64,000 nucleotides of DNA from an uncultured Bacteroidia bacterium. GTDB taxonomy: Bacteria > Bacteroidota > Bacteroidia > Bacteroidales > UBA932. Of this stretch, positions 60,335-64,000 are shown piece after piece. The position numbers and the translations under genes are program-made. Location: NCBI GenBank assembly GCA_902788095.1, contig CADAIT010000004.1, forward strand, positions 101,661 to 165,660, given 5' to 3'. Under the pieces are notes generated by a model that saw nothing but the letters and a program-made list of their open reading frames with translations, was not told the DNA's origin and made no database searches. Each line of letters starts with the position of its first letter. The stretch's first letter is position 1.

Positions 60335-61375
60335 TTATAATTCGATATTCCTGAACCTTTGCTGCAGGAGTTTGATTCTCTCCATTAAGGCATCGAAAGC
60401 CATAGCCTCGCCATAGATGTAACCATTGACCATATTGTCATTGTAATCACGCCTATACGCATCCAGCGTTTCGCCTTCAGGCACAAACTTGATGGCCGCA
60501 GGATAGTCCAAATCATAGTTGACGTGGCCAAGGTGATAGAACTTGCGACGGTGCTCCACAATGGCCCGGTATAGGGCAGTGTCTTCCAGTGCGGCTTTGC
60601 CATAGTCCGTGTCCATCAGTTTTTCGAGGTCGTAAAGATGGCGGCTCATACGTCTGGGGCGAGGTTTCTCTTTCTGGAATTCCTCGTTAAGCAAGAAGGC
60701 TTTTTCAAGGAAAGTCCTGGAGGGCGTGACTGTGCGAATGTCCACAGATAAGGCCTCATCAAGTTCCGGGAACTGGTTGTGTATAAGGGTGGTTATTGGT
60801 TTTGCCTCAAACGGCTCTGACATCGACAGGCAACTAATCTCGATCTTCACCCGCGGTAGGATATCACCGTTATACGCTGGGAAGACGCTGTCATAGTTGA
60901 CAAGGATGACAGTGGGATCACTATCGGCATCAATCGGTTTAGGACCTTCTGCCGTGGGCTGAGTAGTCTGATTCTCGACAGTAAACCTGACAATGCCCAT
61001 AGCGGAAAGACGTTCGCCCAGTTCTTTGGAAAGGGTGCCATGAATATACTTGCGGGATGCTTTGCGTAGATTCTTAAGCTGGGTGTTATTAGTGGCGGCA
61101 GCATAGGGCAGTTTCATCACATCGAGGAAGAATTGCCGGCCAAGAGACAGGTCAATATCTTCACTGAAACGCTCAATGATTGGCCATCCCTTGCTGATGG
61201 ATGTCCCGCCTTTGAAAAGCAGATAGTCGCTGCAAGAGGTAGAGAAAAGGGCTTTGAGGACGGCTGTCACCCACCAATCCTTTTCAACCGCACGGTCTTC
61301 AATATTCTTGTTTGCTGCTGTGGTCTGTACGGCGGCAATACGTTCAGACATATCGAGGCTTTGCCAAAGACTCAT
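60335..61375 (-). CDS. Nucleotidyltransferase AbiEii/AbiGii toxin
   Basis: 346 residues. The DNA polymerase-beta-like nucleotidyltransferase core is visible as LFKGGTSISKGWPIIERFSEDIDL (K-GGTS-SK and D-x-D). AbiEii adds nucleotides to tRNA or other acceptors and stops growth upon phage infection. Length matches the family (~300-350). It overlaps its antitoxin gene by 4 bases (ATGA). Confidence 0.9.
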   Translation of the reverse strand: MSLWQSLDMSERIAAVQTTAANKNIEDRAVEKDWWVTAVLKALFSTSCSDYLLFKGGTSISKGWPIIERFSEDIDLSLGRQFFLDVMKLPYAAATNNTQLKNLRKASRKYIHGTLSKELGERLSAMGIVRFTVENQTTQPTAEGPKPIDADSDPTVILVNYDSVFPAYNGDILPRVKIEISCLSMSEPFEAKPITTLIHNQFPELDEALSVDIRTVTPSRTFLEKAFLLNEEFQKEKPRPRRMSRHLYDLEKLMDTDYGKAALEDTALYRAIVEHRRKFYHLGHVNYDLDYPAAIKFVPEGETLDAYRRDYNDNMVNGYIYGEAMAFDALMERIKLLQQRFRNIEL

Positions 61376-61986
61376 TGTTTGCTGGTTTTAAGCGTTCTTA
61401 CGAATATCTTGCGAATCCACGACGGCATCACCGCCAGGTCCTGTTCTATCGTATCAGGCTCCAGGTGTCGAAGGATGATGTCTCTTATGTGGATTAAAGC
61501 CTCTTCCGAGAAATTCTCTTCTCCAATTGATTTCAGTGCTTGAACAATCAGGCTCGTGTAACGTCCCTTGACTGCAAAATTCTTTGGAACGGCACGGCGG
61601 AATGTGATGGTACGGTTTCCCAGCTTGACTACTCTTGCGGATCCGGATGTAAGGAACACGGCATTCATAGGCACCTGAGTCGACAATCCAAGGAGGTTCA
61701 GGGCTGTGGCTCCGGTAGGAATCACCTGGGCCTTGTCGCGGCGGGCAATAGCCTCCGCTATATCTTCAATAGGGGGATAGACCAGACCAAAACGAGTTTC
61801 CTCCGTTTTGAGATATACGCCCCTGGAAAGATGATGTATGATACCATCTTTGGCCAGATCCGACAGGATTTGCCCCACGTATTCATCATCAAACTCAGGG
61901 AAACTGTTGTTAAAGAACAACGTTCCGTTCTGAGCGGCCTGAATCCGCGATTTGATGATGTTTATAATCTTGTTTTCCCTTGCCAT
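61372..61986 (-). CDS. AbiEi-type antitoxin (DUF6088-like)
   Basis: 204 residues. N-terminal winged helix (IINIIKSRIQAAQNGTLFFNNSFPEF... VGQILSDLAKDGIIHHLSRGVYLKTE) and the AbiEi-like body (IPTGATALNLLGLSTQVPMNAVFLTSG). It represses its own operon and neutralises AbiEii. ATG 61986 is chosen over the TTG at 62016, which lies within the promoter. Confidence 0.88.
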   Translation of the reverse strand: MARENKIINIIKSRIQAAQNGTLFFNNSFPEFDDEYVGQILSDLAKDGIIHHLSRGVYLKTEETRFGLVYPPIEDIAEAIARRDKAQVIPTGATALNLLGLSTQVPMNAVFLTSGSARVVKLGNRTITFRRAVPKNFAVKGRYTSLIVQALKSIGEENFSEEALIHIRDIILRHLEPDTIEQDLAVMPSWIRKIFVRTLKTSKQ

Positions 61987-62013
61987 AAGAGGACTTTTAC
62001 TCGGTAATTTTTG

Positions 62014-62045
62014 CAAAAATACCGATAATTTCTCAAATGAGCAAA
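62014..62045 (-). promoter_or_regulatory. abiE operon promoter
   Basis: On the minus strand: TTTG (62042-62045), 20 bases, TATTTTTG (62014-62021), then ATG at 61986. Confidence 0.75.
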
Positions 62046-62215: not shown

Positions 62216-64000
62216 TTAGCGTAACTGTATGCTGACGGGAATTTCCAGTCTAAGTCCGTTCCACTGGTCATCGACGGTGAGTATTTGTCCCTGAATTGTC
62301 TGACCGGAAACAAAACCCAGTTTACGCAGCAGCAAGCCGTTGAGCCTCCATTCTAAGTTCATTGGATTCTGAGATTTAATCAAGGATTCGTTAGATTGAT
62401 TATATGGCACCCATTTTCAGTTTATTCTCACTTCAGCTCATGGAATATCAAAGATTATTCATTTATACCATCATTTAGTTAGAGTGACAGTCTCTCATAC
62501 ATTAATGCTAGATGGGATATCTGATATCATGCAGTATTTTTTGAAAAATCATGCGGGATTCATACGCTGAAGCTCCTGTACTTCTCAATCAAGTCTAATA
62601 TAATTTTTTAGACAAGTGGATCGTATCTTTTCCAATAGCTCATCTACATCCTGAACATTTGCTACCATTTGGAATAGAAGTGAGGCAACAGCGACATTTA
62701 CATAATTAGAATGTGATGTAGGAGGGGTTCAATTTGTGATGTAGACATATCAAGTTGGAGTTCGACGAGATGGGAATTCAGACGATGCAAATAATATTTT
62801 AGGATGAAATCATATTGGGAATTGTGCAGATTGTTCAAATTTACCACTTTGATCGATGTCTCCTGTTCCATCCATTCAAATTGATAACATAAGATGTCTA
62901 TCTAATACATTATCATGTTTGTTGTGTGCACGAGATGCTTGAGAATAAAGGGAGTGCTCATCTGGTAAATCATAATCTTCTTGAACTTTTTTATTTATTA
63001 GTATTCAATTTTCTTTGTGAATATTTCATATGGCCAAAAAACTTAATCAGTTTGCTAGTTTATCATATTTTTTTCTGTCTCATGCTTGTACCATTTCATA
63101 AAAATCTTTATTAACATCTGCTCACATAGAGCATCATCCAATATTAATCTTATTTGGATTGTTATTACAGAAATCAAACCAATCTTTCCATATGTTATTT
63201 GTTTGAATTACATTAAAGTTTCAATGTTTGATTAAGTCATTTAATATATGCATTGAAAAATGTGCATGCTCACTAGGTTCGTCCGTAACATTTCCGCCTA
63301 TAAGTTCATAATTGTTATATCACAAAGGGCGCTCTCATAACATAACAATATTAAGTTTATTCATAAGTTCTTGGTACTGTTCACGAGTATATTTTCATGT
63401 TCCATATTCCCACATCATATCCCTTATCTTTGTGGCCTCAGCAATTCTGAGGTGTTCTATATGGCTATAGAATTCTTTGTCTCATACTTCTATTTGTCAT
63501 ATAATAGGTAGTATATCCACAGGTTTAATATTGGCTATTTGTATAGATTTGTATTCGAGAGCATTTATCTTTATATTATCTACCTTTATTTCACTTTGAA
63601 CTCCATTCTTATCCTTTATAGTGATGATGATACTACATACTCATGGATATGATGGAGTGAAATGTGATGGATCTGCTATCTCTTTTCTAGTTCAATCTAT
63701 CTCTATCTCCACTTTGTCAAGCGTGAGGCCTTCGGCGACGGTGAGGCCGGCAAGAAGATCGGTCTCCTGGTCCACCTGGAGGGAGAGCTGCTGGAGGGCT
63801 TCCAGGCCGTAGATGGCCACGGCCGTGAGGGTGATCGCCGCGCTGGAGGCGTTGCCTGCCTCGTCGGTGACGGTGAGGGTGAGCGTGCCGGCCTCGGAGA
63901 GGGTTGCGCCGTCTTTGACTTCGGCCTCGGTGCCGGCGGTGTTCTTGAAGAGAAGGGAGACGGTGCATTCTGCGGTGAAGTCGTCCTTCCAGCTGGCGGC
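62216..64000 (-). CDS. Long frame with 25 in-frame TGA codons (TGA=Gly): Ig-like/subtilisin-like surface protein, N-terminus outside window
   Basis: The minus frame ending at TAA 62216-62218 has no TAA or TAG up to base 64000 (594 codons), but 25 TGA between 62417 and 63694. Reading TGA as Gly gives sensible protein, for example EYGTGKYTREQYQ, MLGERPLGYNNYELIGGN and NPAGFFKKY. Read from the N-terminal side: an Ig-like GC-rich part (TLTLTVTDEAGNASSAAITL), a region ADPSHFTPSYPG, then what may be an S8 peptidase (EHAHFSMHIL and PPTSHSNYVNVAVASLL as His and Ser blocks), then a beta-rich C-terminus (WRLNGLLLRKLGFVSGQ). GC content drops sharply between ~63705 and ~62345. In a code-11 host it would be a pseudogene. 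Confidence 0.7.

Follow-up and report, generated by a model that had tools for sequence, protein, structure and literature searches.

From their sequences, some gut Bacteroidales appear to possess a small number of genes that follow a second genetic code, along with tRNAs able to decode them, the remainder of the cell using the standard code. The window analyzed here, a 64,000-nucleotide stretch of contig C4 from an uncultured Bacteroidia bacterium (genome G000), ends within one such gene. We consider it likely that these genes belong to a portable cassette that has its own genetic code, restricted to its own messages, inside otherwise standard-code Bacteroidales. The decoder of this cassette would comprise a tRNA with anticodon UCA and glycine identity elements, usually a UCG tRNA with tryptophan elements, and then a protein resembling RNase III and dsRNA-binding proteins but without the catalytic motif. 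In the genes decoded, called clients below, UGA would be read as glycine and CGA as tryptophan; those described here would encode surface lipoproteins that combine Ig-like repeats with a domain of subtilisin fold. A structured RNA leader that ends 82 to 100 nucleotides before the first client's start would form the third part. Codon meanings, tRNA identity elements, decoder-client linkage, and the structure and spacing of the leader are well supported at the level of sequence.

In the window, the initial annotation had reported a long frame free of TAA and TAG with 25 in-frame TGA codons, naming no strand. We recovered this frame on the minus strand, running from 64000 to 62216, with 594 sense codons, 25 of them TGA, no TAG, and TAA only as the terminator (62216..62218). 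Translation of the plus strand with table 25 was rejected, being full of stops. In the AT-rich middle of the frame (455 codons), the other five frames each contain 8 to 33 TAA or TAG codons, and none of 2,000 mononucleotide shuffles of this middle part gave a TAA/TAG-free frame in any of the six. The identification of a recoded lipoprotein-type client gene of 594 codons plus TAA (62216..64000, minus strand) draws on this reading, on homologues, and on purifying selection in the family. Its 5′ end is missing because the right end of the window is the end of the contig; the gene probably continues in the short contig C27 of the same genome, which matches the end of the window over its own last 50 bases with a single difference and on which the probable start reads M-R-UGA. 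The part present in the window begins with a GC-rich Ig-like repeat region without TGA (residues 1 to 101; 63698..64000, minus strand), for which a similar repeat on C27 and a weak Big_9 match were seen. It is followed by an approximate subtilisin-fold domain holding most of the TGA codons (about residues 155 to 465; 62606..63538, minus strand), placed by structure model and fold match, and by a conserved C-terminal domain (about residues 466 to 594; 62219..62605, minus strand), placed by alignment and model, the limits of both being drawn by eye. Composition shifts sharply within the gene, and the joins that had been suspected near 62345 and 63710 proved instead to be composition changes inside one gene family. 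With TGA translated as glycine, the predicted structure reached a pLDDT of 81.6 and a pTM of 0.75, and Foldseek matched this model to subtilisins (e.g., 1sua, TM-score 0.60 on the target, E 5e-8). On this predicted model the middle domain has the subtilisin fold of S8 peptidases; no S8 peptidase match was found in Pfam, where the window protein had nothing above cut-off.

Codon meanings in clients were assessed by a Codetta-style likelihood on 28 gene pieces, using sites with at least five aligned residues. The standard residue was returned for 60 of the 62 codons, the exceptions being TGA, which gave glycine, and CGA, which gave tryptophan. Across 347 TGA sites, glycine was ahead of the next residue by 612 nats (log-odds of +440 for Gly and −603 for Trp), so that the earlier reading of TGA as glycine and not tryptophan was borne out. 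When TGA was masked in the alignment, 52% of the aligned residues were glycine, versus 63% at GGN codons, and TGG columns were 68% tryptophan (sites with at least four aligned residues). Homologues with tryptophan or a stop at the TGA positions, the contrary outcome named at the outset, were not seen: TGA-free homologues mostly have glycine there. The base after a client UGA was distributed approximately as that after GGN codons, with somewhat more T, less C, and no marked context. At CGA sites (n = 48), tryptophan was favored by 40 nats over arginine and by 14 over the next best residue, and CGA often fell on a conserved tryptophan, as in MM[CGA]KYG versus MMWKYG in the family. At loci in which a UCG tRNA was seen (n = 33 CGA sites), tryptophan was ahead of tyrosine by just 2.4 nats; in G108, which is without a UCG tRNA, CGA was not tryptophan-like (n = 5). 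One locus (L111) has CGA at a conserved tryptophan, yet no UCG tRNA. The window gene, beside its 25 UGA read as glycine, has two CGA codons (413 and 460), one of which lies on a mostly arginine column. CGG was arginine over all pieces (n = 20), and within TGA-bearing loci (11 sites) tyrosine was best, followed by arginine. Taken together, these alignments strongly support glycine at UGA in clients, and tryptophan at CGA is well supported.

Outside the clients, the sampled ordinary genes of these genomes keep the standard code. The claim that TGA is a normal stop outside the frame held in G000, where 30 of 102 sampled ORFs (at least 150 amino acids long, in 142 kb) end in TGA. Corresponding counts were 16/48 in G256, 20/50 in G108, and, in two genomes without the tRNAs, 14/50 (G023) and 14/55 (G033); TGA stops made up 25 to 40% overall. 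CGA usage was no lower in tRNA-bearing genomes, and in ordinary gene pairs CGA aligned mostly with arginine, with tryptophan at 0/9 sites in G000, 0/4 in G256, 0/27 in G108, and 0/35 at other loci. Genome-wide reassignment was rejected, since host TGA stops and CGA-arginine are retained. The window's genome does not read UGA as glycine in place of a stop throughout, as a table-25 organism would, and it is grouped with Bacteroidales-named MAGs of one genus, not with patescibacterial genomes.

Matches to the window protein were found in 6 of 101 related genomes and, genus-wide, in 14 of 300, several of these solely through the Ig-like repeats that ordinary proteins contain. When named species genomes were scanned, 20 loci came up under several Bacteroidales names (16 TGA-bearing and 4 TGA-free), many of them from stomach samples of goats, yaks, sheep, or buffalo. 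Locus pairs L105/L083, L108/L015, L106/L079, L109/L102, L124/L014, and L123/L016 represent genomes fetched twice. TGA-bearing homologues, with up to 27 UGA per client, lie on Bacteroidales contigs of several MAGs and are linked to host-type genes. Complete clients start with a lipoprotein-like or other signal, mostly continue with Ig-like repeats, and end in a middle domain and the conserved C-terminal domain. Among the 14 closest client pairs, dN/dS was 0.16 to 0.45, indicating purifying selection. How decoder and clients are ordered and oriented differs from locus to locus; G001 carries two tandem client copies, both TGA-bearing, G023 has a homologue without TGA that is 45% identical to the window protein, and G033 has a C-terminal client piece without TGA. 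The client family was searched for and not found in G361, G649, and G321. The TGA-free homologue of G023 (L014:10351-12282, plus strand) has one in-frame TAG near its C terminus, and a 49-residue client remnant with one TGA and one TAA (L017/G025:C267:1547-1693, minus strand) lies in a genome in which the tRNAs were not found. A second, UGA-rich client type was seen at L084:1288-3399 (minus strand) and L113:2409-4874 (plus strand), with the same Ig-like front and a different C-terminal part. Further TGA-rich frames listed in a scan, many in GC-rich DNA, were taken for antisense or chance. Recoded genes are easily missed because ordinary annotation cuts them into fragments.

In two places, contig C27 of G000 and next to the tandem client copies in G001, ARAGORN detected a pair of tRNAs with long variable arms and the anticodons UCA and UCG. 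A covariance model built from these four tRNAs gave matches of at least 76 bits, the next best scoring 53. By this measure the tRNAs occur in 8 of 300 genus genomes, 6 of which have TGA-bearing clients. Of the 16 TGA-bearing named loci, 11 have such tRNAs; none was found in the four TGA-free loci. Among TGA-bearing loci without the tRNAs, contig ends truncate L115, L118, and L122, and the genome of L109 has the tRNAs on another contig, leaving L116 (17 TGA, no leader, no tRNA within 10 kb) as a true exception. At three loci, L080 (G046), L082 (G321), and L130 (G649), tRNAs are present, and neither a client nor a leader was seen next to them. We aligned 29 tRNAs (16 UCA, 12 UCG, and 1 CCG) from 16 loci (alignment A8), omitting L082, whose tRNA sequence is the same as that of L083, and L084. 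Both-side pair changes were observed in every arm, including the variable arm, except the invariant D arm. In the published rules, glycine-accepting tRNA(UCA) is marked by G1:C72, C2:G71, G3:C70, and U73, and tryptophan-accepting tRNA by G73 and the absence of A20, with A/G1:U72 supportive (PMC8629427). The glycine elements are all present in 16/16 UCA tRNAs, and G73 and A/G1:U72 occur in all 12 UCG tRNAs, in which the position taken as 20 is C or U. In G001 and others, the acceptor of the UCA tRNA (GCGGAAG..CTTCCGC-T) closely resembles the one in host tRNA-Gly, and housekeeping-like −7 boxes precede the tRNA genes in 8 of 16 cases. Less regular members of the family were also seen: a UCG-type tRNA close to a contig edge, the 5′ acceptor strand of which is mismatched (L084); a third tRNA with anticodon CCG (L113:1817-1911, minus strand), which would read CGG, at a locus with three CGG sites; and, in G361, a degenerate tRNA-like sequence between the UCG and UCA tRNAs (L129:416-510, plus strand; 39.7 bits, no ARAGORN call), the anticodon of which may be CAG.

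Downstream of the tRNA(s) and on the same strand, 17 of 18 tRNA loci encode a protein of about 330 residues; the 18th (L082) ends at a contig edge. Within the genus, 7 of 300 genomes have this protein, each of them being one of the 8 that carry the tRNAs, and in an order-wide set of 393 genomes the tRNAs and the protein occurred in the same 3, two of them in other families. Pfam searches with four of the proteins returned weak RNase III and dsRNA-binding matches (PF14622 below cut-off). Foldseek gave matches of low TM-score to RNase III and to chains of the mitochondrial ribosomal large subunit; the fold similarity to RNase III and to the RNase III-like proteins of mitochondrial ribosomes lies in the helical and dsRNA-binding parts. 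Unlike RNase III, for which we take the catalytic acidic motif to be NERLEFLGD, it reads NSRYVFAGM or close variants in that region (alignment A5) and has a long charged C-terminal helix. Judged by its residues, it is an RNase III-like protein without the catalytic motif. In the window's own genome, the gene (C27, locus L013, 2048-3039, minus strand) is split over two frames, through decay or assembly error.

The DNA upstream of first clients was approximately 66 to 94% identical over stretches of at least 70 bases, and client proteins were 38 to 65% identical (to the alignment's first row). The structure of this leader showed both-side changes in 19 of 41 pairs, compared with 0 of 500 shuffles; the leader region of one locus had no match in Rfam at E values up to 1. 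A leader model run over 51 loci (868 kb) returned 16 rows, only in cassettes: the 12 model-building operons (one of them twice, as L102 and L109), G361, and L115 and L118, both of which are cut by contig ends, L118 being weak (E 0.15). The leader was not found in TGA-free loci, in 20 host samples, or at L116, L121, L080, L082, L122, L130, L084, and L079; of these loci, L122, L084, and L079 have no visible client upstream DNA, L121 has a client without its 5′ part, and L080, L082, and L130 have no client in view. Among 190 relatives it occurs in four (G000, G001, G108, and G361), all with tRNAs. In the 12 operons, 82 to 100 nucleotides separate the leader's end from the chosen start codon (for L015, the first of two ATG codons gives 82 and the second 88). 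G361, from another family, provided an independent leader match, 87 nucleotides after which an ATG begins a frame that is free of TAA and TAG and has three TGA in total, one of them at codon 4; on the same strand, the other two frames are interrupted by 11 and 10 TAA or TAG. The protein of this frame lies outside the window's client family and had no convincing Pfam match. In clients with a visible N terminus, UGA is codon 3 in 13 of 20, versus 12 of approximately 276 other ATG codons (Fisher p 2e-11, a value that ignores relatedness and takes the split between client and other ATG codons from the analyst's reading), and in the remaining clients a UGA occurs later, within the signal part or close to it. 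Neither the codon-3 count nor the leader spacing is blind, because starts were chosen by eye from signal peptides and the M-x-UGA motif.

As to how these parts might work together, we lean toward a mobile, message-addressed code, in which the leader would mark the mRNA, the dead RNase III-like protein would recognize the leader, and two (once three) tRNAs would read UGA as glycine and CGA, perhaps CGG, as tryptophan on that message only, for more than one payload family. The tRNAs would be charged by the host glycyl- and tryptophanyl-tRNA synthetases. On client mRNAs marked by the leader, perhaps with the RNase III-like protein bound to it, the special tRNAs would win over RF2 and tRNA-Arg, and they would not do so elsewhere. 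The early UGA may serve as a gate, translation stopping where the decoder is absent so that the payload, which presumably acts at the cell surface, becomes unreadable. In G108, a single leader stands ahead of as many as three tandem clients, which contain many UGA; for this reason we propose that the leader acts at initiation, where it might set the ribosome to accept the special tRNAs. Against this scheme, under which host genes would have to escape read-through, stand the undepleted host UGA stops and the housekeeping-like −7 boxes of half of the tRNA genes, as do the split RNase III-like gene of the window's own genome, the CGA on a mostly arginine column in the window gene, the narrow lead of tryptophan over tyrosine at loci with a UCG tRNA, and the irregular loci L080, L082, L111, L116, and L130.

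The same promoter boxes before half of the tRNA operons, and the lack of a marked base context after client UGA, would also fit plain suppression, in which the UCA and UCG tRNAs are weak general suppressors to which clients have adapted and the leader and protein serve otherwise, for example in transcription control or mRNA stability. We regard this as unlikely, since efficient decoding would be required for clients containing as many as 27 UGA, yet neither UGA stops nor CGA-arginine codons are depleted in the host, and the leader and protein are tightly linked to recoding. Still less probable is a remnant of an earlier transfer out of Absconditabacteria or another code-25 donor, with clients and tRNAs imported and not, or no longer, expressed in Bacteroidales. 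Both reassignments are indeed shared with Absconditabacteria, and client cores are AT-rich; against this stand the dN/dS values of 0.16 to 0.45 among diverged clients, their lipoprotein-like signals and host-type Ig repeats, and the retention of covarying tRNAs and leader over families. No Absconditabacteria-named locus appeared in the scan of named species genomes, which covered close motif matches only.

The initial annotation had implied that a piece of an Absconditabacteria or Gracilibacteria genome had entered a chimeric contig. An assembly or binning chimera of this kind would explain the sharp composition changes in the window gene and the contig end there, but the same architecture, with tRNAs, leader, and protein, recurs within contigs of unrelated MAGs, which makes this source very improbable. 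It was dropped because same-genus homologues appeared; TGA homologues on Bacteroidales contigs of several MAGs, host-type neighbors, lipoprotein-like signals, and Ig-like repeats also count against it. It is hardly credible that UGA encodes selenocysteine or tryptophan: although ARAGORN labels the UCA tRNA as tRNA-SeC, its U73 and glycine-type acceptor and the TGA-site log-odds speak against this reading, and SelA was not found in G000 (83% complete) by a search that was positive in 2 of 14 control genomes, E. coli among them. A viral, phage, or plasmid origin was also rejected, as searches of viral contigs and phages gave no match to the client family, and searches of viral contigs, phages, and plasmids gave none to the RNase III-like protein.

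A genetic code is usually regarded as belonging to an entire genome, organelle, or virus, and those recodings known to us that are message-specific insert rare amino acids at few sites. Every single feature of the cassette has a known relative. To our knowledge, though, no bacterium with the standard code is known in which a handful of chromosomal genes have two codons reassigned to standard amino acids and come with tRNAs, a protein, and a leader of their own, and we found no description of such a case in the open-licence literature searched. Some phages reportedly recode a stop with their own suppressor tRNA, e.g., code 15 in crAss-like phages. The cassette likewise places genes plus tRNA in a standard-code cell; unlike these phages, it is chromosomal, affects two codons, and has no match in viral or phage collections.

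Table 25, the code originally proposed for the window gene, stands with respect to UGA as glycine; the cassette's code goes further, because CGA aligns with tryptophan and a second dedicated tRNA (UCG) is present. Absconditabacteria (SR1) and Gracilibacteria use table 25, and CGA and CGG are tryptophan in Absconditabacteria (PMC8629427). The cassette shares with the Absconditabacteria code UGA as glycine, CGA as tryptophan, and tRNAs that follow the same identity rules (PMC8629427). Unlike that whole-genome code, it is confined to a few genes of standard-code Bacteroidales, its tRNAs have long variable arms, and it includes a dedicated protein and an RNA leader; CGG is arginine over all pieces, though it may have another meaning in a few loci. 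Selenocysteine recoding employs SelC, SelB, and SECIS (PMC7609411), and the cassette resembles it in having a UCA tRNA with a long variable arm, a structured RNA on the message, and, as we infer here, message-specific UGA reading. It differs in using standard amino acids, a sense codon as well, and many sites per gene, with one leader per operon before the start, SelA not found, and an RNase III-like protein in the place of SelB. Allo-tRNAs are described with unusual anticodons, long variable arms, 8/4 or 9/3 acceptor domains, and serine-type identity (PMC7609411); the cassette tRNAs share the unusual anticodons and long variable arms but are 7/5 and of glycine or tryptophan type.

If this reading of the cassette is true, codon reassignment can begin locally and spread by horizontal transfer, the ribosome of one cell can follow two codes, and nature offers a ready orthogonal translation module. 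In the window itself, G+C drops from approximately 58% to approximately 41 to 48% from 43 kb on (43000-64000), as in a variable or foreign island, and two adjacent ORFs beside the client (60335-62016, minus strand) may be an AbiEii/AbiEi toxin-antitoxin pair.
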